DNA of 64,000 bases, taken from NCBI GenBank assembly GCA_934045905.1, contig OW203769.1:13237705-13301704 (forward strand), in the 5' to 3' direction. Of this stretch, positions 4,923 to 56,850 are shown in pieces (position 1 is the stretch's first letter; every line of letters begins with the position of its first letter). Under the pieces are notes generated by a model. It saw only the letters and a program-made list of their open reading frames with translations. It did not search any database and was not told the DNA's origin. Source of the DNA: Leuctra nigra (Eukaryota; Arthropoda; Insecta; Plecoptera; Leuctridae). A program made the translations under genes and the position numbers.

Positions 4923-5147
4923 AGATTATTTCGTGAAATTGTACCTGGATTCGGAATGAAGTAGGTACAATTTCCAAGGATCCAATGACATCAAGTACCT
5001 ACGTCTGAATAATTATTGAATAAACATTGCAGTAAATGTTTGCTTCCCTGATTGTTAGTGCCAGTAGAATTAGATCCCAATATGTCCAGTCACACAAACA
5101 ACATTCTGCCTGGGTTCTGCTCATGCGGTCTCATCATTTGACAACGG

Positions 5148-5427
5148 ACAGGTATGGCTGAGTGGTAACGCTCTGAACTTGTATTCCGGAGGCCCGGGTT
5201 CGATTCCCACGGCCGTCCTTCCTGACTGGTTTTTTTTCGTGGTATTCCCTCAGTCGACAGGCAAATGCTGGGAAGGTACCCTACTATAGGCCACGACCGC
5301 CTCCTTCCCACCTTCCATCCTTACCTACTCTTCACCATAATCTCCCAATCATCATCATAATCATTCATCCGTCGCCATTATCCTATAGATGTAGATCAGT
5401 GCGACGTTAAGCCCCAGATAAAAAAAT
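5148..5427 (+). mobile_element. tRNA-derived SINE, near full length
   Basis: The head has a pol III A-box-like 'tggctgagtgg' (about 5155) and a B box 'gggttcgattccc' (about 5197). Then comes the shared body (5210-5380) and the A-rich tail 'cagataaaaaaa'. The same structure recurs at 19325-19599 (plus) and 6029-6310 (minus). The head resembles a Leu/Ser-type tRNA but lacks a proper acceptor stem, so this is not a functional tRNA gene. Confidence 0.85.
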
Positions 5428-34938: not shown

Positions 34939-35019
34939 ATGAGATTGTCAAGTGATACGTTAAAATATCCTGCAAAAGCACAGTTGATAAGAGTGATTTC
35001 AAGAGGACTGACAGCAGAG
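34939..35019 (+). other. Candidate upstream exon of the NLR-like gene
   Basis: An open stretch beginning ATG (MRLSSDTLKYPAKAQ) ends at a strong donor, 'gag|gtaagt'. A good acceptor 'atatttccag' at 35277 lies 11 bp before the ATG at 35289. If joined, it would be a 5'UTR exon, because its own frame continues into a different frame from the 2A peptide and stops at 35515-35517. This is inference from splice signals only. Confidence 0.3.
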
Positions 35020-35123: not shown

Positions 35124-35288
35124 TTCAATATTCAATATTTTCAACCCTTAGAGGATTAAAAAATTAATACAGCAAATCGTGAAATGAACCTCTAGGTTGC
35201 CAAATTTCAGCGTCATCAGAGAAGATATAATATTTTTTAAATATACGAAAAGTAGAGCGATCTGTTTATATTTCCAGCTGAAATATAG

Positions 35289-38200
35289 ATGGGCGTGGCC
35301 TTGGACCAGTGGCGTGCCGCCGTGGGTCGCTGGGCCGGAGGCGCAGGCCCCTTGTGTCACACGCCACTGGCAACATGGCGGCAACCGCTGCACTGGCTGG
35401 GCGTGGCCTTGGAGCCGTGGCGTGGCGCCGTGGGTCGCTGGGCCGGAGGCGCAGGCCCCTTGTGTCACACGCCACTGGCATCATGGCGGCAACCGCTGCA
35501 CTGGCTGGCCGTGCTGACAGCGCTCCTCGTCATCGGCGGCGTAGAGTCGAACCCGGGACCGAGGCAACAGGTAAATCACGTGACAAGTAGAGAGAGGTCG
35601 ATTAACTTCGTTCTTACTACTGAAGAATACAACAGTTATGAATGCAATATTTAAAAATCGCAATGTGTGCAAACAATCCCGAGTACGATAAACGCCATTC
35701 TATTATATTAAGCAAGAAATTAGATTCAATAGACTTTGTTTAACATGGGTAGGTATATTGTGATATTTACCAGTCTAGAGTCAACAAGTTGGGTAAACAA
35801 TTGCGGTCATGTGTTTGCACCACTAAGACACATTGTTCTCCACGTAAAATATTTGCTTATGCCTTTAATAAAATACACGCTATTTTAAAAGTAATTAAAT
35901 ATAATTATGAAGATTATTAAAATCTATAAGCTTTTAGTAAACGAAATGTTGTTTTATCAGATAAGAATTGAGATAGCACTATAATATCACACTTGGTAAC
36001 TTCAATCTATAATCATTGTCCTGTAATCTTAGATTCATTTGTGATGACTGATTGTAGTTGCCAAAGCATTTGTGAAGGAGAAAATACAATTTGTAAAACA
36101 AGGTTTTCGACATACAAAATAGCTTTTCAAGGTCGTCTGTATCTGGGTTTCAGCGCAGCTTATCGGAGCGGCTTGCTTGACTTGCTGGAAACAATAGCTG
36201 ATGTTCTTGGAAGTCCAGATTGTAATCTTTGACACTTGAACCTGTAATTTCAGCAAGAAGGAGGTCAGAAGGTCAAAGACGAGGTGAAGAAGTTGAAGGA
36301 TGAAATCCGCAGCTTGGAGAAACTGTTGAAGCTGGAGCGAATCCAGCGGGGAGAACTGGAAATGCAGCTCCAGCAAAAAGACCGAGATACGACATTGCGA
36401 GTACAGGAGCTGGAGAAGAAAATTCGTGAACTTTTAGGAATCGAAGAGAGACTGAAAATTCGTCTTTTGGCACAAGAAGAAACATTTCGAAAAGAATTGA
36501 AAGAGCAGACTTTTTCTGAAACAGTTTCGACACACGAGGTAATAATTGGCCGTGGAAATATTAGATAAAGGATAATCAGTTTTACGTTTTCCTTCAACCT
36601 AAAAGTAGGTACAGGGTCAACTCCAAGAGAAAGGTTCACCCTTGCAGTTAGATTACCATGCATGACTGGTTTAGCAGCATTGCCAGTAGGTAGAGACCTC
36701 CTGTATCTAGGCAACACAACTAGCGAGCTGTACTGCGGTGTAGATACAGGGTTTACATTTCACTTACAGGGGAATACCTCTGTGCCAAGAAGGTTTAAAT
36801 ACCATTTAAACCTTCTTGCTCTGTGCATACAGCATGTTTCATCGTACATAAACTAGGTATTACTTCCTATTTTATTGTACTTGGAAATGTTGTTATGTTT
36901 TTTTGTTTTAACTGTGTAATCCTCTTTTGTTTCTAGAATCCAAACGTTGCTGGAAGAGTTCCTTCATTCAACGCACAACCAACTCATTCAGGGATAATAA
37001 GGTATATAAATAATGAAACCCAATGGATGTGTTTAAGCAATGAACAAATCAATATGGGTAACGGAATTACAGAAAGTATTGACATTAACACTAAATATTC
37101 ATATATTGGAACACAGCCGCTGCAATATGAACTGCAATATTGTAGAGCATCGGACTGGATATCGGAAGGTCGTGGGTTCGAGTCCCACTCGAGGAAATTT
37201 TTTCATATTGCAGTTGGTATTTATTAACATTCACCTAACTGAGGGAATCACTAAAAACCATATTTCACACCTATGGACTGTAAACATTTAACTCTCGGAT
37301 ATTATGGGATTCAACAGCTTGTATGTTCTGCCCAGATCACCGTCTCCCCCGCGCTACACGAAGACGCCGAGCAGTGCCGACATGTCTGGAGAGTTGTTCG
37401 AGGTGAAACTCGCGACGGTGATCTTCCTGCGCGCCATCAACTGCGCACTGCACTTCTTCCTAGCGTCCAACCTCCAGGCAGCGGACAAGTTCGACGACCT
37501 GGTCTTCAGATACAAGACTGACGTCACTTCCGGATGGAAGACTACGCTCATTCAGCTCAAACACAAGCAAGACAACAGGGTGGGACGGAAACAACTTGTT
37601 AGCATGAGTCCGACGGCAAAGTTTAGTTTGATTAAATATTGTCATTCGTATTTGAACGTCAAAGATAACCATCAGTCTAATGATGATTTGAAGTTTCTTG
37701 GTGATTTCGATGACTTTGAGTTTGTTTTGTACACGAATGCTTCTGTCGAGGGTGTTGAATATGACCACCAGACTTCAGAGAGTTTAATTGCTACTGGAAA
37801 GCAAGGTCAAGGTTACACAATCAATGACAAGAAGGACTCAGATATCTTCCAAGTACTCAGGGAAATGGCGTCTCTCAAAGAACTGCTGATCGAGATTCAG
37901 AACTCAGGAACAGAATGTGGAGAGAATGACTGGAAAAGTAAGCTGGCTGCATTTAAAGTTTCAAAATCTCTAATAAATTCAGAAATTCATAGAAAATTAG
38001 ATTCGGTTAAAAAGATTGAAGATGTTACAGAAGTTTTAACCGCCCTTAAAGATTTCTCAATTGTTTCTGACTTTTCTTCATACGAAGAGTTTTTCAAAAG
38101 GTTTCAACTGTTTTCCAAGCAAGCTGACCAGAAAGAGCTAGATGGTGTAATTGAGAGAGAGATCCTGATTGCATTGGGTGTTTCTGACCAATCAGAGCTC

Positions 38201-41200
38201 AGCAGGATTGCCAGTGACGTAACAAAGGCGGTAGAAAGTTGGTGGTCCCAAGTAAATGACATCGAGTTCCTGACAGAGGAATCTGGTTTCTGGAAGGAGA
38301 TTGTCTTGTCCAGAATCAAACACTTTTCACATCCAAAAGCCGAGGAGTACGAAAAGTCTATGATCAGGTTTGAGCAGAGTTCGATATCTTCTCTTCAGCT
38401 GGTTCTTCCCAAGACAGGAATCCTGAATATCATCTCCAGCGGGAAGTCCACTGATCTCAGTTGTCTGAAGGTCCACCAGGCGTTGCTAGGTTACGATGAT
38501 AAACAAGCTATCTTCATCTCTCTCGGCTCCTTGTTTGACTGTCAAGAAGAAGTCCTGCATCTCTGGCAAAACAGATTCTGTAGAACTCTAGTTGTTGATT
38601 GTGGTTCTGACTTGGACAAGTCTGCAAAACTCTGCTACGAACTGATTGGAATTGTTAAGCAAACTTTGAACATCAGAGTAGTCCTTGTTTCTTGCAACAA
38701 CACTTCTTTATCTGACTTCTTCAAATCAGACAAGTTGAACTATGACGAGGTTCGTGATGATTGCCGCTGGAGCGAGCTGACTGAGGCCTCCCAGGACGAC
38801 TTACTGCGCAGGACAGTTAGGTTCCAAGGCGTACAGGTTCCATTCAACCTTCTCATAGATCAGGAAGAGAGGCTCTCGAAGCAACTGAGGGGAGACACGC
38901 TGTGCAGTTTGCTGTCCGATGAAATGGTGCTCGGTTTGGAATTACCTCCTCCCATCGAGTACTACATTCCTCGTAAGCTGGTTCGCTCTAGAGTCACCGT
39001 GGACGTGGAATCTGTAGATGACATCTCGGAGAGATTGGTGCTGATTGCGGCTGAGCCCGGCATGGGCAAGTCGACGCTGCTCACTCAGTTAGCGTACTCA
39101 GCCAAACAAGATGACCCGTCGACCTGGGTCATGAGAGTCAACTTAAATGACTGCTCGGAATATCTGGATTATGTTAAATCACATGCAGTAGAATCAATAC
39201 AACCCTTGGAATTCTTATCAAAATTTGGACTGAACGTGAATCAAAACTCCCGTCTTGAGGAAGCTCTTCTAGAACATTGTTTATACACGTCTGGAAATAT
39301 CACAATATTTCTGGATGGTGTTGATGAAATCGCTCCTTATTATGAATGCCAAATTTCTTTAATAATAAAATACTTAATGGTCATAAAATTTAAATCAATC
39401 TGGGTGACTTCGAGATTAGCTGTATGTGACTTCCTTGAAAATGTCATGAATGTCAAAGCATTTAATTTCCAAGCTTTCACTAAAAATGATCAAAACATCT
39501 TCCTCCAAAGGTTCTGGCAACAGAAATTTACTGGTATTCCTGAAGACCACCTCCAGAGTTTTACAAAACGAGTTCTTGATCTTGCTGCTAACGCATTCCG
39601 TGGAGAAAACCTTGTAATTAGTATTCCTCAGCAGACCCGAATGTTAGGGGAATACTTTGAAGATCAACTGATTGTTTTCAAAGATGCTGAGGAAATCAAA
39701 CTTTCAGAGAAACTCAATCTTTTGAATCTATACCAACACTTTGTAGACAAGAAGTTGGAGGTGTATGCAAGAGAGAAAAGGAAAGAAGATCCAACAAATG
39801 CTTTTACTTTGGGTGCCAATGAAACTCTTCACAAAAGTTTTATTCAGAATCACAAAATGGCTTCTCTGATTCTTCTACTTTCTTCAGAAGACCTGAAAGA
39901 GTTAAACATTTCGGCATCACAAAGTTCTGATTTTCTCAAAATAATCCAAGATGGGCGAGAGAAATCAGGCATCATTGACAAAATTATTGAGGGGAAACCC
40001 CATTTCATTCACAGAACGTTTGCAGAGTATTTTTTCCGCTATTTGGTTTTCAGAAAATTATTGCACCTCCCAACAATTCATAGATGAACATTTCTTCCTC
40101 CCAGAGTTTGAAGTAATCAAAGAGATGTTCGATCGTCTTTTGTCTGCAGATTTCCGCTTGCACAGTGCAGTGATAAGTCGGGAGGTTGAGACGGTGGAGA
40201 AGTTGTTGGCATCAGGAGCTTTGGTTGATGAACCAGACAAGGGAGGAAGGACAGCTTTGCATCTATCAGCTATTTACGGACACACTCATTCCGCTTACAA
40301 ACAAATCACACAAGTTCTTCTCGACCACGACGCTTCCATTGACACCCGAGACAAAGTGTTGAACTTCCGGCCACTGCAGTACGCAGACGCCACTGACTCG
40401 TGGACTGTAGCTGGTTTGTTGATGCAGAAGGGTGGCGATTCAGCTGACTTCAAACGAGCTGAAAGTAACTTGACGGGTGAGGTTTACACAGAGCTTCTTG
40501 ACTTTATAACAGATGGAGTTCAAGGCTATTGCGGACTCCTGCACAGTGCTGCTCGGTACGGTGAACTCCGAGTACTGAAGTTCTTGATGAATGAAGTTGG
40601 AGCTGACGTTAACCTTCCCCAGGAGGAGGGTCACGTGACTCCTCTGCATCGGTCTGCCGAGGGTGGTCACGTTGAGGTTCTCAGCTATCTGGTGGGGAAA
40701 GGGGCAAGTTTGACATCTTGCGATTCCAACAAAAGGATTCCGTTGCATTACGCGGCCCAACACGGTCAGTTGGAAGCGATCAAATACTTGGTGGAGCAAG
40801 GTTTAGATGTCAATTGTTCTGACAAGGACGGATGGTCGCCAGTCCTAATTGTGACACAACAAGGGTTTAAAGAGGTTATGGAATACTTCAAGTCAAAGAA
40901 TGTCACGGTCCAATCAACTACAAAGCAGTTGGGAGTAGGTCTTCTCTGGTCCGTTTTCAGGAACAATTTAGGTTCAGTTAAATCATTTCTAAATCAAAAA
41001 TCTCCACTGAACCATGTTGATGACAAAGGCACAAGTCCACTACATTGGGCCGTAAAGAATAATAACTTCGAAGTGGTTAAACTGCTGATTCGAAAGGGAT
41101 CAAGCATAAATGTTGAAAATTCCGAGGGATACACTCCGTTGAACATATCTTTATGTGGACAAAATATTGATCAGTATTCTTCAAGTTTGAAGTTCGAGAA

Positions 41201-42353
41201 CGAGAAATTGAAAATCGTTCAACACTTGATTCAGCACGGGGCTGATGTCGGTTCTTTGGTGGATTGGAGTCCCACCCAGGCAGGAAAATTTGCGTTGAAG
41301 CAGGGTTGTCGTCCGGAGGAAAAAGTTGTTGCTTACTTTTCTAAACACCTTTCTGGTTTATCCCAACAGCTAGTAACAGCCTTTGAGAGTGGATCACTTG
41401 TCGATGTGAAGAAATATATTGACCAAGGTGCCAATAAATTCATTGCTCTGAATGATATGACAAATATTTTCAAACCTAGAAACTACGAGTTGGTCCAGTA
41501 TATTGTTGACATTATTCCGGAATTCACAAATTTTGCGCACAGTGATGGTCGGATTCCATTGCATTTTGCCGCATTATTCGGGCATACAGAAGCTGTACAG
41601 CTACTCCTCGACAAAGGATCGGATATCAACAAACAAGATGCGCAAGGAAGCAGTGCCTTGATGATGGCTCTTCTACAAACAGAAGGAAAGAATTGTGACA
41701 TGTCAGGCACAATACAATGTTTGATAGACTCCGGAGCTGATGTGGAGTTGTTCGATAATGAAGGTAAGTGTCCACTTATACTGGCAGCTTTCTGTGGAGA
41801 CCTGAACACGGTCCACGCGTTAATTAGGGCAGGATGTAATGCAGATGTTCATGCCAAAAGTAAAACAACTCCACTTATGGTGGCGGCTCAAGAAGGACAC
41901 GAAGAGATTATAAGAGTCTTGATTCAGGCTGGAGCCGACGTTAATGCCACTTGTTCAAGGGGACAGGCTGCTTTTCATTATGGAGCTTTGAAAAATGCCG
42001 GACTTCCAGCTCTGGAAATGTTAAGCAGTAGTGAAGATTTCGATGTGGACCAGGTTAACTATTCGAATGTAACTATATTTGTGCAAGCTTGTCGCAACTC
42101 CTCTCTAGATGTAATCAGGTATCTAATAAGCAAGGGTTCTGATATTCACCGGCGAGCTCCTGATGGTTCTACGTGCTTGCATTTTGCCGCGTCTGATGGT
42201 AGGATTGAAATTATAGAGTTCTTGATTTCGCAAGGAGTCGATGTCCAATTAACAGCCGATAACAACGTAACAGTATTGGATGTCGCTCGTGATCTCAATC
42301 ATACTCACGTTGTCAAGTACCTCGAACAAATAAATAAATCTTATAATTCCTAA
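35289..42353 (+). CDS. NLR-like STAND protein: 2A peptide, coiled coil, nuclease-like module, NACHT, ankyrin repeats
   Basis: My model has exons 35289-35570, 36254-36538, 36937-37001 and 37318 (or 37336)-42353. All junctions are GT-AG and phases agree (0,0,2). An in-frame TAG directly precedes the ATG. If one T in the run 40030-40035 is skipped, the frame stays open for about 1888 codons. Order: residues 1-91 repeat-rich leader ending in a 2A-like NPGP; about 100-185 charged coiled coil; about 235-300 PD-(D/E)XK-like module (FDDLVF, QLKHK); about 790-1115 NACHT-type NTPase with GMGKST, FLDGVDE and HRTFAEYF; about 1150-1885 some 18-20 ankyrin repeats. Known NLR and STAND proteins of this layout sense a ligand through the repeats and switch on the N-terminal effector by nucleotide-driven oligomerisation. 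A role in innate immunity is inference. The poly-T indel could be a sequencing error, a dead allele or recoding. Family call secure; exact 5' end and intactness less so. Confidence 0.85.
35292..35507 (+). repeat. Two 108-bp in-frame repeats in exon 1
   Basis: A 36-residue unit (GVAL..WR.AVGRWAGG ... TPLA.WRQPLHWL) occurs twice in a row with only a few base differences. It is very GC-rich and rich in Trp, Gly and Ala. The second copy runs directly into the 2A-like segment. Other frames across the repeats are also open, which is a side effect of composition. Confidence 0.9.
35505..35561 (+). other. 2A-like ribosome-skipping peptide
   Basis: The hydrophobic segment AVLTALLVIGG is followed by VESNPGP, the 2A signature (D)xExNPG|P. 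The usual Asp is Gly here. In known 2A sequences the ribosome fails to join the final Gly and Pro, releasing the upstream peptide and continuing translation. Here the break would fall between G90 and P91, freeing a 90-residue leader and starting the NLR body at Pro. 2A-like leaders have been described at the N-termini of sea urchin NLR proteins, where they can also act as signal sequences; that parallel supports the call. Activity of this variant is untested. Confidence 0.75.
36254..36538 (+). other. Coiled-coil exon of the NLR-like gene
   Basis: Ninety-five codons, phase 0 at both ends, acceptor 'gtaatttcag' and donor 'gag|gtaata'. The sequence is a charged heptad helix (VKKLKDEIRSLEKLLKL, ELEMQLQQK, VQELEKKIRELL). 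It lies directly after the 2A cut site, so it would be near the N-terminus of the released NLR body, where NLRs often carry a signalling coiled coil. Confidence 0.8.
37110..37225 (+). mobile_element. tRNA-like fragment in NLR intron 3
   Basis: 'tagagcatcggactgg' and 'cgtgggttcgagtcccac' resemble a tRNA D-arm/anticodon and T-arm with a clear B box. The flanks 'gcaatatgaactgcaatatt' and 'catattgcagt' are inverted. No acceptor stem pairs, so it is a tRNA-derived insertion rather than a tRNA gene. It lies about 100 bp before the exon 4 acceptor. Confidence 0.5.
37396..37600 (+). other. PD-(D/E)XK nuclease-like module before NACHT
   Basis: The segment has an early acidic residue in GELFEVKL, then KFDDLVFRY, then after 19 residues IQLKHK. 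This E ... [D]D-x-V ... QxK pattern matches the core of restriction-like nucleases such as the DUF4297/Cap4 type that head bacterial Avs and CBASS effectors. Candidate catalytic residues: Glu at 37400, Asp at 37493/37496, Gln at 37553, Lys at 37559. The fold assignment is from motif spacing only. Confidence 0.55.
39050..40035 (+). other. NACHT-type NTPase core
   Basis: Walker A AEPGMGKSTLL at 39050-39082. Walker B ITIFLDGVDEIA at about 39299-39334, with the DGxDE form typical of NACHT domains. WVTSR sensor-like segment at 39401-39415. The winged-helix/end-of-NACHT motif HFIHRTFAEYF is at about 40001-40033. All catalytic motifs are intact, so ATP or GTP binding is expected. Confidence 0.9.
40030..40035 (+). 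other. Frameshift at a six-T run inside the NLR-like gene
   Basis: Upstream the frame reads HRTFAEYFFR and stops at 40085-40087. One base later the other frame reads FSAIWFSENY and continues through all the ankyrin repeats to 42351. Removing one T gives HRTFAEYFSAIWFSENY, which fits what I know of related NACHT-ankyrin proteins at this position. Codon bias and domain order are continuous across the site. Confidence 0.85.
40150..42345 (+). other. Ankyrin repeat region, about 18-20 repeats
   Basis: Many near-33-residue units with the ankyrin signature are visible, for example GRTALHLSAIYGH, VTPLHRSAEGGH, RIPLHYAAQHGQ, TSPLHWAVKNNN, RIPLHFAALFGH, TTPLMVAAQEGH and STCLHFAASDGR, each followed by a helix and a 'GADVN'-like turn. 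A few units (around 40420 and 41300-41500) are irregular. It would form the ligand-sensing or partner-binding part. Confidence 0.92.
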
Positions 42354-49145: not shown

Positions 49146-52106
49146 ATGGAGAAATCAACTATCCTACTGCTGGTCGTGTGTGGTAAGATATTTTACAACA
49201 TTCTTTCGTATTCATTCGAAACTTATATTGTCTTTCTGCTCTTTGATTGTTCTGTGTTCTTTTCTTTGTACAGGTTAAAGTATAGCTAGGGCTCTAACCA
49301 TGGTGCTTAGAATTATTTGTTAACTAAAACTTATAACGTGGTGCAGTCGCGAGCGATTTTGGCGCTTGTTGCAGGCACTTTCTTGGAAACGATTGACAAA
49401 ATGGGTTGACGAAATGATTTGAAATTTTATTCATGATTAGATCAAAGACAAACTCCGGATTATCACTTGGTACAGTTTTAATTTTGTGCTTTGTTAATTA
49501 GTTATTATTAGATGATTTTTTAATAAAAAATTGAATATTTTCTTGTGACATGGCTTCATTAATAATTGATTTATGAGGTAATATGAGGTAAAATGTCCAT
49601 TTGCTTTTACAACATCACATTTGTGATTTTTTTTTTCAGTGAGTGTAGCGAGCGCCCATACTCTTCGCAAAGCCGAAATATCAAAGGTAAGATAATCTTC
49701 TACTTTGCCCTTCATTCTAACCATTCTATCACCCTCTATAAGCTCAGAGGCCCCCCCCCCTACACTGCCGTTGTACTGGAATAAGAATACATTTAAATAA
49801 AAATCACAGTGTACAACATCCGAATATTAATTCGTAATTCACTTTCAGTCTTTCAATACTCTGCTAACTTTTAATCGGTTGATTTGGACTGTGTTGTCAT
49901 GGTAACAAGCAATGACTTCCTTTGAATGCCTGTTTAAGGTGATATATTACTGATTTTAGCAGAATATTGAAATCTAGACATTAAATTTTAAACAGTTGAT
50001 TAGGACTATTTTTATTTATTGATTGATTTTAAATTGTTTTGGGCGCTTTAGCTCGGTCACAAAGTTATCACAATTACATCCACAAACAACAATCAGTTTA
50101 ACAGCTTGAATCAACAAGTTGGCTTGCCATGGCAACAACCAATTATATTGTTTGAATATCCGTTTAAACTTAACTACTGTTATAAACAGAGTAATGAAAA
50201 ACCGGCCCTAAAACGCGAAAGGACAATTTTAATGCATTAATTTCACAGGCACGCTTAAAACGCACTCAGTATTTTAACAACAATATTGAAGAAAAAAATT
50301 ATATTTTTTTTCATGTTGTCCCATTGTTGTAAATGTAAAATTACATCCGGAAAATTGTTCAAATCTATTAAACCCTCTTACTTGATCTTCTTGATTAAGG
50401 GCGGTCATAATTTTTCCCCCGTTAATGGTTGTTTTGGAGCGGTTTTAGAGGGAAATACGAAATATAAATTGCCATATTTGGCAAACGGTTATGAATATCG
50501 AAAAAGCAAGAAAGACATGACATGTATTGAACCTTTATCTACATTTTCATCGCTTACTGTCATAACTTTGCTCCTACTATGTAGTCAGCATTAGTCGGGC
50601 ACGAAAACGCTCCGTTTCTCGTCCGTCGCTCGTCCGTCTCTCACACTAAGCGTGAGAGCGTAGTTTTGACACTTAGCGATGAAAATGTAGATAAAGGATC
50701 AATACATGTCATTTCTTTCTTGCTTTTTTGATATTCATAACCGTTTGCCAAATATGGCAAGTTATATTTTTGTATTTCGCTCTAAAACCGCTCCAAAACG
50801 ACCGTTAACGGGGAAAAATTTGTGACCGCCCTTAATCAAGACTCCTCTGCAGTGACTAAGCCTGTTTAGTGTTTAGCTACTGAGAGGCCCATGAAAGTCA
50901 CGTGACTGTTGTTTCCAGTCCGATGCTCGTTTGGCTCGTGATGTCGGCGACGACGACGTACCCCCAGTGGAGTATTTGAGAGGCGTTCACAAGAAACTCG
51001 ATGACTCCGTCGACGACCTCCTAGTGGGGATCAACCAAGTGGAGGCCAAAAACAGAAACGACTCTGCCGAGAGGGTGGCGGCGACCGAAAACCTCAAGCT
51101 GACGTTGAAGAGGCTCGTTGAGGAGAAGATTGAAGCGATGAAGAGTAAACTCGTAGAGCATATTATCAAACATGATCCGAACAACGTTGCCGCATCATCA
51201 CCTGAGTCTGAAGAATCTACGTCAAACGAAGTGACACCTGCTATTAATGAAGAAGCTCAAAGTCTTAGCGAAGAGGACTCAGAGGATAACACAGCGGAAG
51301 ACACGATAACGGAATCAGGAGTGGAGGCGGCAGAAGAAGGCGATGACGCTGACAGCAACGAAGAGGATTCCAGTGGGGATCTAAGTGAGGGTGACATCAC
51401 AGAAGAGAGTGGGGACTTTAGTGAGGGTGACAACGCTGACATCACAGAAGAGGCTTCCAGTGGCGACTTAAGCGAGGGTGACAGCGCTGGCATCACTGAA
51501 GAGGCACCCAGTGGGGACTTAAGTGAGGATGACAGCGCTAACATCACAGAAGAGGCTACCAGTGACAACATCAGTAACGGTGCACGCATGTACATCGGAG
51601 AAGAGCCTTCAAGTGAGGACTTGAGTGAGGGTGACAGCGGTAACATTACAGAGGCTCCCACTGTCGACAACAGTCCCGATGACAGCGCTAACATTACAGA
51701 AGAGGCTCCCACTGCCGACATCAGTACCGCTAACATTACAGAAGAGGCTCCCATTGCCGACAACAGTCCCGCTAACATTACAGAAGAGGCTCCCATTGCC
51801 GACAACAGTCCCGCTGACAGCGGTAACATTACAGAAGAGGCTCCCACTGTCGACAACAGTCCCGATGACAGCGCTAAAAGCACACAAGAGGCTCCCATTG
51901 CCGACAACAGTCCCTCTGACAGCGGTAAAAGCGCAGAAGAGGCTTCCAGTGCCGGTGACAATGTCAGCAAGGACGAGGATTCTATAAGCACACAGGAACT
52001 GATCTCTCAAATACTCAACGCGATCTCCAAGGCTGACATTGGGCAGAGGAAGTTAAGCGAGGCCATAGCCGATAGCGGGGTCGCGCCAACGTGCGGCGGC
52101 AAATAG
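49146..52106 (+). CDS. Secreted, highly acidic repeat protein, three exons
   Basis: Exons 49146-49182, 49640-49686 and 50919-52106, with donors 'ggtaag' and 'aggtaag', acceptors 'tttttttcag' and 'tgtttccag', and agreeing phases (1,0); 423 residues. Residues 1-18 (MEKSTILLLVVCVSVASA) are a signal peptide split across exons 1 and 2. Residues about 40-110 are a charged helical segment (YLRGVHKKLDDSVDDLLVG ... LVEEKIEAMKSKLVEH). About 120-375 is a low-complexity acidic region of Ser, Asp, Glu, Thr and Gly. The C-terminus (about 385-423, ELISQILNAISKADIGQ) is again helical and ends CGGK. At least six N-I-T sequons suggest heavy glycosylation. I do not recognise the family; a secreted matrix, salivary or other extracellular role is possible. 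A TATA box and a poly(A) signal bracket the gene. Confidence 0.85.
49845..50215. repeat. 'cagtttttcaat' MITE family copies in intron 2 of the acidic gene
   Basis: 'ctttcaatactctgctaact', 'tggtaacaagcaatgac' and 'gccatggcaacaaccaatta' match the copies near 20985 and 23145. The end 'taatgaaaaaccggccct' (about 50194) matches the family terminus. Confidence 0.6.
50390..50840. mobile_element. Foldback element in intron 2 of the acidic gene
   Basis: 'cttgattaagggcggtca' at the left and 'tgaccgcccttaatcaag' at the right are inverted, followed inward by 'ggagcggttttagagggaaa' / 'cgctctaaaaccgctcc' and 'tttggcaaacggttatgaat' / 'attcataaccgtttgcc'. Arms reach the centre near 50640. A related copy is at 53115-53612. 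Confidence 0.85.
51371..51960 (+). repeat. In-frame imperfect repeats of the acidic protein
   Basis: First block: units like SSGDLSEGDSA.ITEEA (about 51371-51560). Second block: units like NITEEAPTVDNSP and NITEEAPIADNSP (about 51640-51960), 39-57 bp long. Substitutions keep the acidic character and the N-I-T sequon. The complementary open frames on the minus strand are artefacts of the repeat. Confidence 0.85.
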
Positions 52107-54077: not shown

Positions 54078-56208
54078 TCAATGACGTAATTCCGGCTGCT
54101 GCTGCCTCGTAGCATGGAAAGGGAACAGAGCTCTGTGCCCTGCGCACCCTATCACCATGTATCCGTACAGGACCAGCCTGTATTGCACCTCATTGTTGTA
54201 CGCGCCAGCGCTCAGGTGCTGATTCTTTGCCTGATCGAGTCGTCGCTCTATCCCCCTGTATTTGTCTCGGAGCAAGCCCAGCTCGACCTGGTACAGAAAC
54301 AGGCGCGAAGAATTAGTAATAAGCTTCGCTAGATAGAACACGGAACGTTTAGTTTCAGACAAGCGCTGACCACATATGGTACAGCAAACACAGGAGCTCC
54401 CCGGGAGCTCCCAATCAAGCGAGCGGAACGTGCGACTTCATTTGAAACTTATGGCTCGAATCTCTTTTTTTATCTGCTTTTTGTGTTAAATTTCAACTGT
54501 TAAATGTCTGTGTTCGGTGTCGGTGTCCCACCAGTGAAAAAAGGCTTCACTTATATTGGTGGAGTGGAGTGAGCCTACCTCTGTCATAAGTGTAAGTGTA
54601 CCTAATCTTATATCGCTCTGTCGTGTATTAAATATAGCATCTTGAAAAAGCATTCATCCTCCCTCCCTCCATCCCTAGGATGTACCTGGGACCCATTAAG
54701 GATCCCCATTAGGAAGCTGCCCGATGACGGCAACAAGATACTTTCTTTTAAAAGCGTTACAAAGAGCGTCTTCCTGGTGTACAGTGAACGTCAATAGAAG
54801 CCAGCCAGTGGTCCCCATGAGCCCGCTTGGCACGCTTCCCGCAATACACAGATGACAGTTGTGTTGACTACCCTCCTGCATTAAATGATAACATTCGATA
54901 ACAACTCTTTGTCGGAGGTTAGACTACACACAGGGTTGCCAACCGTCCGGATTTAATCCGGACACTCCGGAATTCTACAACATTGTCAGGACGACGGAAT
55001 TACCTCATTCCGGACAGCATTATGTCCGGAATTGTTGAAAATATGAAACTTACACTGTATAATGCAATATTCATTGAAAAAATGAAATTTTCAGATAAAA
55101 TTGAAGTCGTTGTTCTAGATTTTTGAAGAGATTTTCAACATTACTATGGTCAAATCGCCGAAGATTGTAGTCCAGAATGCATGAAAATGACCCAAATGCA
55201 CGTTCTAAATCCAAAATTTCCCCGCACAGTACCTACTGGGGGGCCCTCCTCCCAGACCCCCTATTGATTTCGTTTGATACCGTCTTTTCGTACGCATACA
55301 TGGATTCCCCAAAAATACCGTTTCTGTAATCCATTTTCCCTCATAGATTTCGCTGAATTCGATTAATCTAAAGTTGACAACCCTAGCAACACAACTGCCC
55401 TCTATGCAATGCGGGTTGCGTCGAGCCTGGGCTGCGAAGTTATGAACGTGGCTGTACAACTCACATCGGCCTGAAGTTGGTAGTACCTTCATTATACATA
55501 TACAAAAAAAATAAAATCTTGAAATTACAACTTCAGAAAACGTTTTCCTACATTTCAACTATATTTAAGTATAAATGAATCATAAAATGTCATTTAACTT
55601 GCAACCCCTGTCGTATAGCGAGGTTTCAATTTATTGCTTTCCGAGAATGAACAAAACTGTAACACAGGAGGTATAGGGAAATCATTTAGTTTTTGGTTGA
55701 TAACTTTTAAAATAGCACACGTTGGTATTGTTTTCAATTTTTTTCCTAAAAGAATGTCCAACTATCTATCTAGAAATCAGTTTTTTTTAAAAACGTTGAA
55801 CCTCAGTAAAATTAAAAACTCAAAAATAGCATGGAAAATCGTCATGATTTTAATGGCCCCCATAAGACTACATGTTAAAAATAGGAATTTATAACTACAA
55901 TATCTCAAAATCTAGACACGAGAAGTTCTTCATATTTCACAATATCGTGTAAATAGTGATTATTGATACCTCTGCCAAAAAAAGGCTTATTTGGAAGATA
56001 TGAGATATCAGTTGTGCTACCTTAACGTGGCTGTACAACTCACATCGGCTCTGTGGATCGCCCTGTCCAAATCGCGAGCTGCCAGCCATTTGCCTTCCAC
56101 CTCTGCCTTAAGATCCGCCACCTCCTGCTCCAAGTCACGACACTTCTTCTTCGGGCTCGCGTTCGCGTCGTTAGTGCTGCTCTGCTCATTCCGCGCCTCC
56201 CATTGTTT
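54078..56208 (-). CDS. Coiled-coil protein, last two visible exons (partial)
   Basis: On the minus strand an exon at 56208-56044 (55 codons) follows a 'ctgtag' acceptor and ends at a donor, GAT|GTGAGT. The next exon, 54287-54078, starts after 'tttctgtaccag' and ends in a TGA. Phase is 0 at both ends. The joined sequence reads SPKKKCRDLEQEVADLKAEV, then LAARDLDRAIHRAD, then VELGLLRDKYRGIERRLDQA, a continuous charged heptad helix across the junction, which supports the model. The C-terminus (QYRLVLYGYMVIGCAGHRAL) has a mildly hydrophobic stretch and ends PELRH. Exons are GC-rich against AT-rich surroundings. The 5' part is not found: upstream is a minisatellite, then transposon DNA. Product and function unknown; it could also be a pseudogene. 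Confidence 0.6.
54931..55386. mobile_element. hAT-like element in the coiled-coil gene intron
   Basis: 'cagggttgccaaccgtccgg' at the left and 'gttgacaaccctag' at the right are inverted hAT-type ends. Inside is 'ccggatttaatccgga', and 'ggggggccctcctcccagac' resembles the C-tract MITE interior near 4690. Confidence 0.6.
55471..56023 (-). mobile_element. 553-bp insertion flanked by a 26-bp direct repeat
   Basis: 'aacgtggctgtacaactcac' plus 'atcggc' occurs at 55445-55470 and again at 56024-56049. The DNA between is the dispersed repeat also found at 44703-45205 in inverse orientation. The duplicated 26 bp contain the splice donor GAT|GTGAGT of the coiled-coil gene, so both sides of the insert carry a donor. 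Confidence 0.8.
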
Positions 56209-56850
56209 CTACAGTCGCAAGTACAGCATTATTTCTACAGTCAGAGTACAGCATTGTTTCTAGAGTCACAGGTACATCATTGTTTCTACAGTCACAAGTA
56301 CAGCATTGTTTCTACAGTCACAGTACATAATTGTTTCTACAGTCAGAGTACAACATAATTTCTACAGTCACAGTACAACATTGTTTCTACAGTCACAAGT
56401 ACAGCATTGTTTCTACAGTCAGAGTACAGCATTGTTTCTACAGTCACAGTACAACATTGTTTCTACAGTCACAAGTACAGCATTGTTTCTACAGTCGTAA
56501 GGACAGCATTGTTTCTACAGTCACAATGACAGCATTGTTTATACAGTCACAGTACAGCATTGTTTCTATAGTCACAGGTACTTCATTGTTTCTACAGTCA
56601 CAAGTACAATCTAACTCGCAATTTGTTTCTACAGTCACAGTACAGCATTGTTTCTACAGTCACAAGGACAGCATTGTTTCTACAGTCACAGGTACTTCAT
56701 TGTTTCTACAGTCACAAGTACAGCATTGTTTCTACAGTCACAGGTACATCATTGTTTCTACAGTCACAAGTACAGCATTGTTTCTACAGTCACAAGTACA
56801 TCATTGTTTCTAGAGTCACATGTACATCATTGTTTCTACAGTCACATGTA
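56200..56850. repeat. Minisatellite, about 25-bp unit
   Basis: Tandem units 'cattgtttctacagtcac' plus 'aagtacag' with variants (agag, aggtact). It starts at the exon edge at 56200-56214 and ends in the hairpin element at 56851. The plus-strand frames rich in FLQSQ/CFYSH and ST V/T are artefacts of the repeat. Confidence 0.92.

Follow-up and report, generated by a model that had tools for sequence, protein, structure and literature searches.

A candidate 2A-type ribosome-skipping leader on an expanded family of STAND-ankyrin receptor-like genes in the plecopteran Leuctra nigra

Introduction

Recoding by 2A peptides is described as very rare in cellular genes, with the NLR leaders of sea urchins as the named cellular example (PMC12846837, PMC4981915, PMC11512398). 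In sea urchins, 26-residue leaders with the core D(V/I)ExNPGP precede receptors built from DEATH, NACHT and LRR domains, about 35% of the expanded family carries 2A, and one such leader is reported to skip at ~80%, the product of its non-skipping mutant going to the Golgi (PMC4981915). For viral sequences, the core has been widened to (D/G/C/N)(V/I)ExNPGP, and among RNA-virus octapeptides those with Gly (1,207 cases) are found to equal the exact D(V/I)ExNPGP (908 cases) in prevalence. Functional D-to-G variants are known, and motif 5, which has A, G or S and then G at p12 and prefers P at p15, is described as standing outside the motifs assayed in that work (PMC12846837).

Here we describe a locus in a window of 64,000 nucleotides (the whole stretch of DNA analysed; positions 13,237,705 to 13,301,704 of contig OW203769.1) of the plecopteran insect Leuctra nigra, in which an earlier note had placed a 2A-like peptide at the head of an NLR-type gene. 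Our literature search, which covered titles and the starts of abstracts, found no report of 2A leaders on arthropod NLRs; an earlier report is possible, and a paper by Rao from 2025 (Cell Rep 44:115822) is said, by its title, to cover eukaryotic 2As. The closest known system is that of the sea urchin NLR leaders, which likewise combine an N-terminal 2A and a hydrophobic run on NACHT-type receptors, and in both cases a good part of the family is involved (PMC4981915). The present leaders differ in being ~55 residues long up to NPGP (91 if the unit is duplicated) and in having Gly at p12, and they stand before a coiled coil, a nuclease-like domain, an NTPase and ankyrin repeats, all known here from sequence alone. 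The viral 2A/StopGo class with Gly at p12 is alike in its GVE(S/W)NPGP core and in the Gly or Ala before p12, whereas here the gene is cellular and p15 is S or W, where motif 5 prefers P (PMC12846837).

Results

The leader exon and the gene model of the window

The 2A-like segment that had been reported in an ATG-started frame was confirmed: the leader exon ends in LAVLTALLVIGGVESNPGP followed by RQQ and a phase-0 donor, and a TAG stop (35286-35288) stands directly 5' of its ATG at 35289 (Table 1). By translation the core GVESNPGP occupies 35538-35561, with NPGP from 35550, and the predicted skip point lies between Gly 35556-35558 and Pro 35559-35561. The core conforms to the widened StopGo/2A pattern, and the context before VE is a hydrophobic run ending in GG or AG that resembles motif 5 as described in PMC12846837; in IGGVE and IAGVE of the leaders, the p12 Gly and the Gly or Ala in front of it fit that description. 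The suggestion that Gly in place of Asp marks weak or partial skipping did not hold, given how common Gly is in the RNA-virus octapeptides and the functional D-to-G variants described in PMC12846837; the ratio of skipped to unskipped product is not predictable from Gly alone. The rest of the window leader is made of a 108-bp tandem duplication, the second unit of which has its start altered to LGVALEPWRG, and because of this duplication we take the last 55 residues up to NPGP as the basic leader unit.

Both the leader donor and the acceptor TTTCAG/CAA at 36254 have phase 0. Joining them gives a frame that stays open across the coiled-coil exon, a small linker exon and, from 37336 onward, exon 4, with exon limits inferred from the sequence. 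At the level of this gene model, as opposed to a transcript, the NLR-type protein carries its 2A at or close to the N terminus. Pfam scores of the NTPase (AAA_16 9.7e-05, nSTAND3 8.7e-04, NACHT 0.029) all fall short of the curated cut-offs, and the C-terminal repeats are present as ankyrin (Ank_2 9.3e-91), off-frame in the window copy. There the reading frame changes between the NTPase ORF (37292-40087) and that of the ankyrin repeats, across 39945-40087, through an extra base (+1 frameshift) relative to paralogues at a T run near 40031, which may be a true lesion or a sequencing error. Of the proposed in-phase splicing into a coiled coil and NACHT-ankyrin body, the matching phases stand, on these exon limits, and the intact body does not in the window copy. 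A full-chain protein search (7,988 candidates scored) yielded two distant relatives of the body, P0001 and P0002, which carry the precomputed NACHT assignment PF05729 and whose N termini fall inside the nuclease-like domain. The PDB sequence search gave no match at E <= 0.1, and Rfam gave none. Elsewhere, the window holds a predicted tRNA-Thr(TGT) gene (5146-5219), a degenerate tandem repeat spanned by an open frame of 403 codons (50895-52106) and a 26-bp tandem array (56201-56846).

Table 1 Features of the window gene and body frames of two paralogues
Feature	Position	Strand	Basis
Alternative first exon MRLSSDTLKYPAKAQLIRVISRGLTAE, donor GAG/GTAAGT, phase 0	34939..35019	+	
Leader exon, 94 codons, ATG 35289 to phase-0 donor CAG/GTAAAT at 35571	35289..35570	+	translation, splice phase, four genomic copies
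108-bp tandem duplication in leader, 2.1 copies, 95% match	35290..35513	+	
2A-like segment LAVLTALLVIGGVESNPGP	35505..35561	+	translation; core fits (D/G/C/N)(V/I)ExNPGP as given in PMC12846837
Coiled-coil exon (judged by eye) QEGGQKVKDEVKKLK...	36254..36538	+	phase 0 at either end
Linker exon of 65 bases	36937..37001	+	splice sites and reading frame alone
Exon 4, with a STAND/NACHT-type NTPase (AEPGMGKST) after a nuclease-like N-terminal domain	37336..40087	+	
Ankyrin-repeat ORF, frame differing from exon 4 after T run near 40031	39945..42353	+	
L029, distant paralogue, open body frame	C4:24926836-24929538	-	
L016, close paralogue, open over 1671 codons	C8:13057110-13059830		

Copies of the leader at related genes

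Across the genome (536 Mb, 144 contigs), a DNA search placed the leader at no fewer than four positions on three contigs, a lower bound: in the window and, at 89%, 82% and 79% in the DNA search, at C8:10988267, C5:37499696 and C4:6835747. All four copies have an ATG, start with MGVxxxQWRA, end with ALLVIGGVE(S/W)NPGP and are followed downstream by a matching coiled-coil exon and an NTPase-ankyrin body (~30 kb read for each other copy). The order of leader, coiled coil, NTPase and ankyrin repeats was likewise found in the three other close copies read, and the acceptor TTTCAG/CAAG is common to these and the window. The tandem duplication occurs in the window and C8:10988267 leaders and is absent from the C5 and C4 copies. 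In-frame stops are present in all three other leader-bearing close copies (at L017 one counted stop may sit in the intron before its exon and another is in the ankyrin part), and the C5 copy (L009) bears a 127-bp inverted-repeat insert right after the NPGP codons, at C5:37499860. Protein searches with the leader gave no match at E <= 10 among 159 candidates, and none among 9 candidates in another search.

The arrangement is more compact in L029, in which the ATG lies in GCCATCATGG, followed by MGVSVEQWRAVIGSWCGARGPVSRRSDETGAEWFQPPTLILLAALLMIAGVEWNPGP and then directly by the coiled coil, so that leader, NPGP and coiled coil form one uninterrupted exon of 163 codons up to the donor-like AAG/GTAATT. 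In this paralogue no stop stands immediately 5' of the leader ATG; the frame continues open upstream of it and holds another ATG. By homology, this single exon lowers the main doubt about the joining of exons in the window gene. L016 showed no leader over the ~13 kb that precede it; an indel changes the phase of its coiled-coil exon, inside which there is a separate ATG. The frame, the motif, their recurrence at paralogues and the fusion of leader and coiled coil in one exon can be read directly in the genomic DNA. In a tree of 29 of the 48 family loci, which leaves out the 2A-associated locus C11:18966631, a 2A site is carried by 4 of 5 and 7 of 11 members of two deep groups and the strict motif by none of the 13 members of two other branches, and four changes are needed for the label of 2A presence.

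Genome-wide distribution of the 2A motif

A genome-wide search with the pattern (G/D/E)(V/I/M)ExNPGP returned 101 sites in 536 Mb, compared with 0 for the reversed pattern used as control. The body protein has at least 72 genome matches, which merge into the 48 family loci, and 12 of the 100 motif sites listed lie within 20 kb of these loci, where 0.09 would be expected; the statistic is a guide only, as paralogues are not independent. All 12 are upstream on the same strand at 0.9-8.5 kb; the 100 sites listed include none that is downstream of a family locus, or on the opposite strand, within that distance of 20 kb. This count misses leaders with other motif variants or more than 20 kb away. 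Besides the four leader copies, eight further family loci have motif sites upstream, and together with the order kept in the three other copies and the single exon of L029 they support the claim that a 2A-like leader heads this type of gene. Sequence reading covered five of the 12 sites (window, C8, C5, C4 and L029) and, at C4:24639603, the 23-base match only; the reading stops short of C6:945248, C9:2297349, C9:3078646, C9:21816088, C9:25654738 and C11:18971609. The pattern EWNPGP gave 22 sites, versus 1 in its reversed control: four at family leaders (C4:6835893, C4:24639609, C4:24930453 and C5:37499842) and 18 away from the listed family genes, as compared by eye. Since just four are at family leaders, W at position x is excluded for the six other distant family sites.

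The other 88 of the 100 listed sites are distant from family loci. In a subset of 36 sites compared letter by letter, two 23-base strings occurred 8 and 7 times on different contigs, and some off-family sites are paired, 117 to 144 bases apart. These off-family sites probably belong to mobile elements that carry a single 2A site or two of them. Work by Odon from 2013 reportedly found 2A in APE-type non-LTR retrotransposons, which are alike in that the motif is encoded in an animal genome; here, in contrast, it forms a leader on receptor-like genes. One repeated 2A string searched in viral contigs had 0 matches, and the body search there yielded 8 pattern-matching stretches, none of which encodes a relative.

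Conservation of the leader and its 2A end

The core GVExNPGP of the five leaders that were read differs in protein solely at x (S or W), and the changes at the V, G and both P positions of the octapeptide are synonymous. Variable sites fall at third positions in 12 of 20 cases over the last 19 leader codons (P 0.013) and in 6 of 16 over the first 15 codons (P 0.45). Because the octapeptide varies only at x and third positions are in excess over the last 19 codons, the 2A end seems to be under constraint, which for the remainder of the leader is suggested by shared residues only. Pairwise neutral simulations of the 55-codon unit among the four close copies were not significant for any of the six pairs (P 0.06-0.47). 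A hydrophobic run precedes NPGP in all five leaders, with a best 12-residue mean Kyte-Doolittle value of 2.0-2.9.

A nuclease-like domain in the receptor body

The nuclease-like domain (37337-37936 in the window) was aligned with 27 paralogues, and E22, D53, Q73 and K75 (E, D, QxK) are invariant in the 28 members. Profile matches to LmuA were obtained for 4 of the 28 (best 4.1e-06) and to the SAVED-PDDEXK model for one (0.0076), and neither Pfam nor PADLOC matched the window's own domain at E <= 1. Its structure model is of low confidence (pLDDT 54); with it Foldseek gave nothing at E <= 0.001, and the best fold match, MspJI at E 0.031, is a hint only because of that pLDDT. This N-terminal domain is likely a PD-(D/E)XK nuclease effector. 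It resembles the bacterial defence PD-(D/E)XK effectors LmuA and Cap4 in its profile matches and conserved E, D and QxK, and differs in that it belongs to an animal gene with an NTPase and ankyrin repeats. A nuclease-like domain with some LmuA/Cap4 likeness opens the proteins of a large STAND-ankyrin family of ~48 loci.

Alternative explanations

Chance is hardly credible as the source of the motif in an open stretch. Short as the motif is, it lies beyond chance because of the 101 sites against none in the control, the four leaders that code for the peptide and the 12 of 100 listed sites upstream on the same strand, and its conservation and association with the family speak against chance as well; we rejected this candidate on the peptide-coding copies, the empty control and the association. 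Since several related genes of this genome share the arrangement, we take the leader to be, very probably, a genuine and conserved element of control, as opposed to a match by chance. We also regard as very unlikely that it is a fragment of a mobile element that landed near family genes, a possibility suggested by the 88 listed sites off the family with their repeat-like 23-base strings and some pairs. Set against it are the leader DNA found at only four places (a lower bound), each of the four at this gene type, the uniform upstream, same-strand position of the 12 nearby listed sites, and the one-exon union of leader and coiled coil in L029. The leader may nevertheless be an ancient capture from a mobile element.

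Two further alternatives concern how the leader is used. The window gene might take its first exon from further upstream (MRLSSDT...; Table 1), with the leader skipped or alternative, which would be compatible with a functional 2A leader elsewhere in the family and which we judge rather unlikely. That exon is open, ATG-started and phase 0, and its donor matches 8 of 9 consensus positions, as does the leader donor, but the leader recurs, and this exon had no match at E <= 1 in the three leader-bearing paralogue regions, a search of little power with 27 residues, and near L016 only a 7-residue match (E 4.1) was seen. Quite unlikely, in our view, is a leader that is truly coding yet serves chiefly as a conventional signal or membrane-anchor peptide with an inefficient NPGP end, the fused protein being the main product. 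The hydrophobic run of all five leaders would suit such a role, whereas the preservation of the octapeptide other than x in each of them, and skipping at ~80% by the comparable sea urchin NLR leader as reported in PMC4981915, argue against it.

Discussion

We consider it probable that the segment belongs to a genuine leader exon of an expanded gene family and that skipping at Gly-Pro yields a free leader and a cytosolic receptor. Points that count against this reading are the frameshift of the window copy, the stops in the three close copies that share its leader, the leaderless L016, the tree branches in which the strict motif was not found, the neutral simulations without significance, the upstream ATG of L029 and the reading of five of the 12 sites. 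The segment would form the C-terminal end of an N-terminal leader exon in genes that comprise leader, coiled coil, nuclease-like domain, STAND/NACHT-type NTPase and ankyrin repeats. Translation would start at the leader ATG, and the hydrophobic run together with GVExNPG would stall the ribosome, so that the Gly-Pro bond is skipped. One predicted product would be a short free leader, of 90 residues in the window gene (54 to 88 in the remaining copies that were read); the second would be a receptor that starts with Pro and stays cytosolic. Any residual unskipped form would retain the leader with its hydrophobic run and could enter the secretory or membrane pathway. We infer splicing in the window gene, skipping, the two products and their different location, and we propose a freed cytosolic receptor with a minor tethered form because of the analogy with the sea urchin NLR leader as described in PMC4981915. 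More tentatively, and as a possibility that we hold to be short of probable, the leader could set a built-in ratio of free leader and cytosolic sensor versus tethered sensor, could have a function of its own, and its loss, as in L016, could fix one form.

If true, this would mean that 2A leaders on NLR-type genes arose a second time outside echinoderms, or that their use there is deeply ancestral. A 2A leader on another receptor architecture would suggest that ribosome skipping is recurrently used to set the dose of immune-type sensors or to sort them, an idea for whose test this genome holds both leader-bearing and leaderless paralogues.
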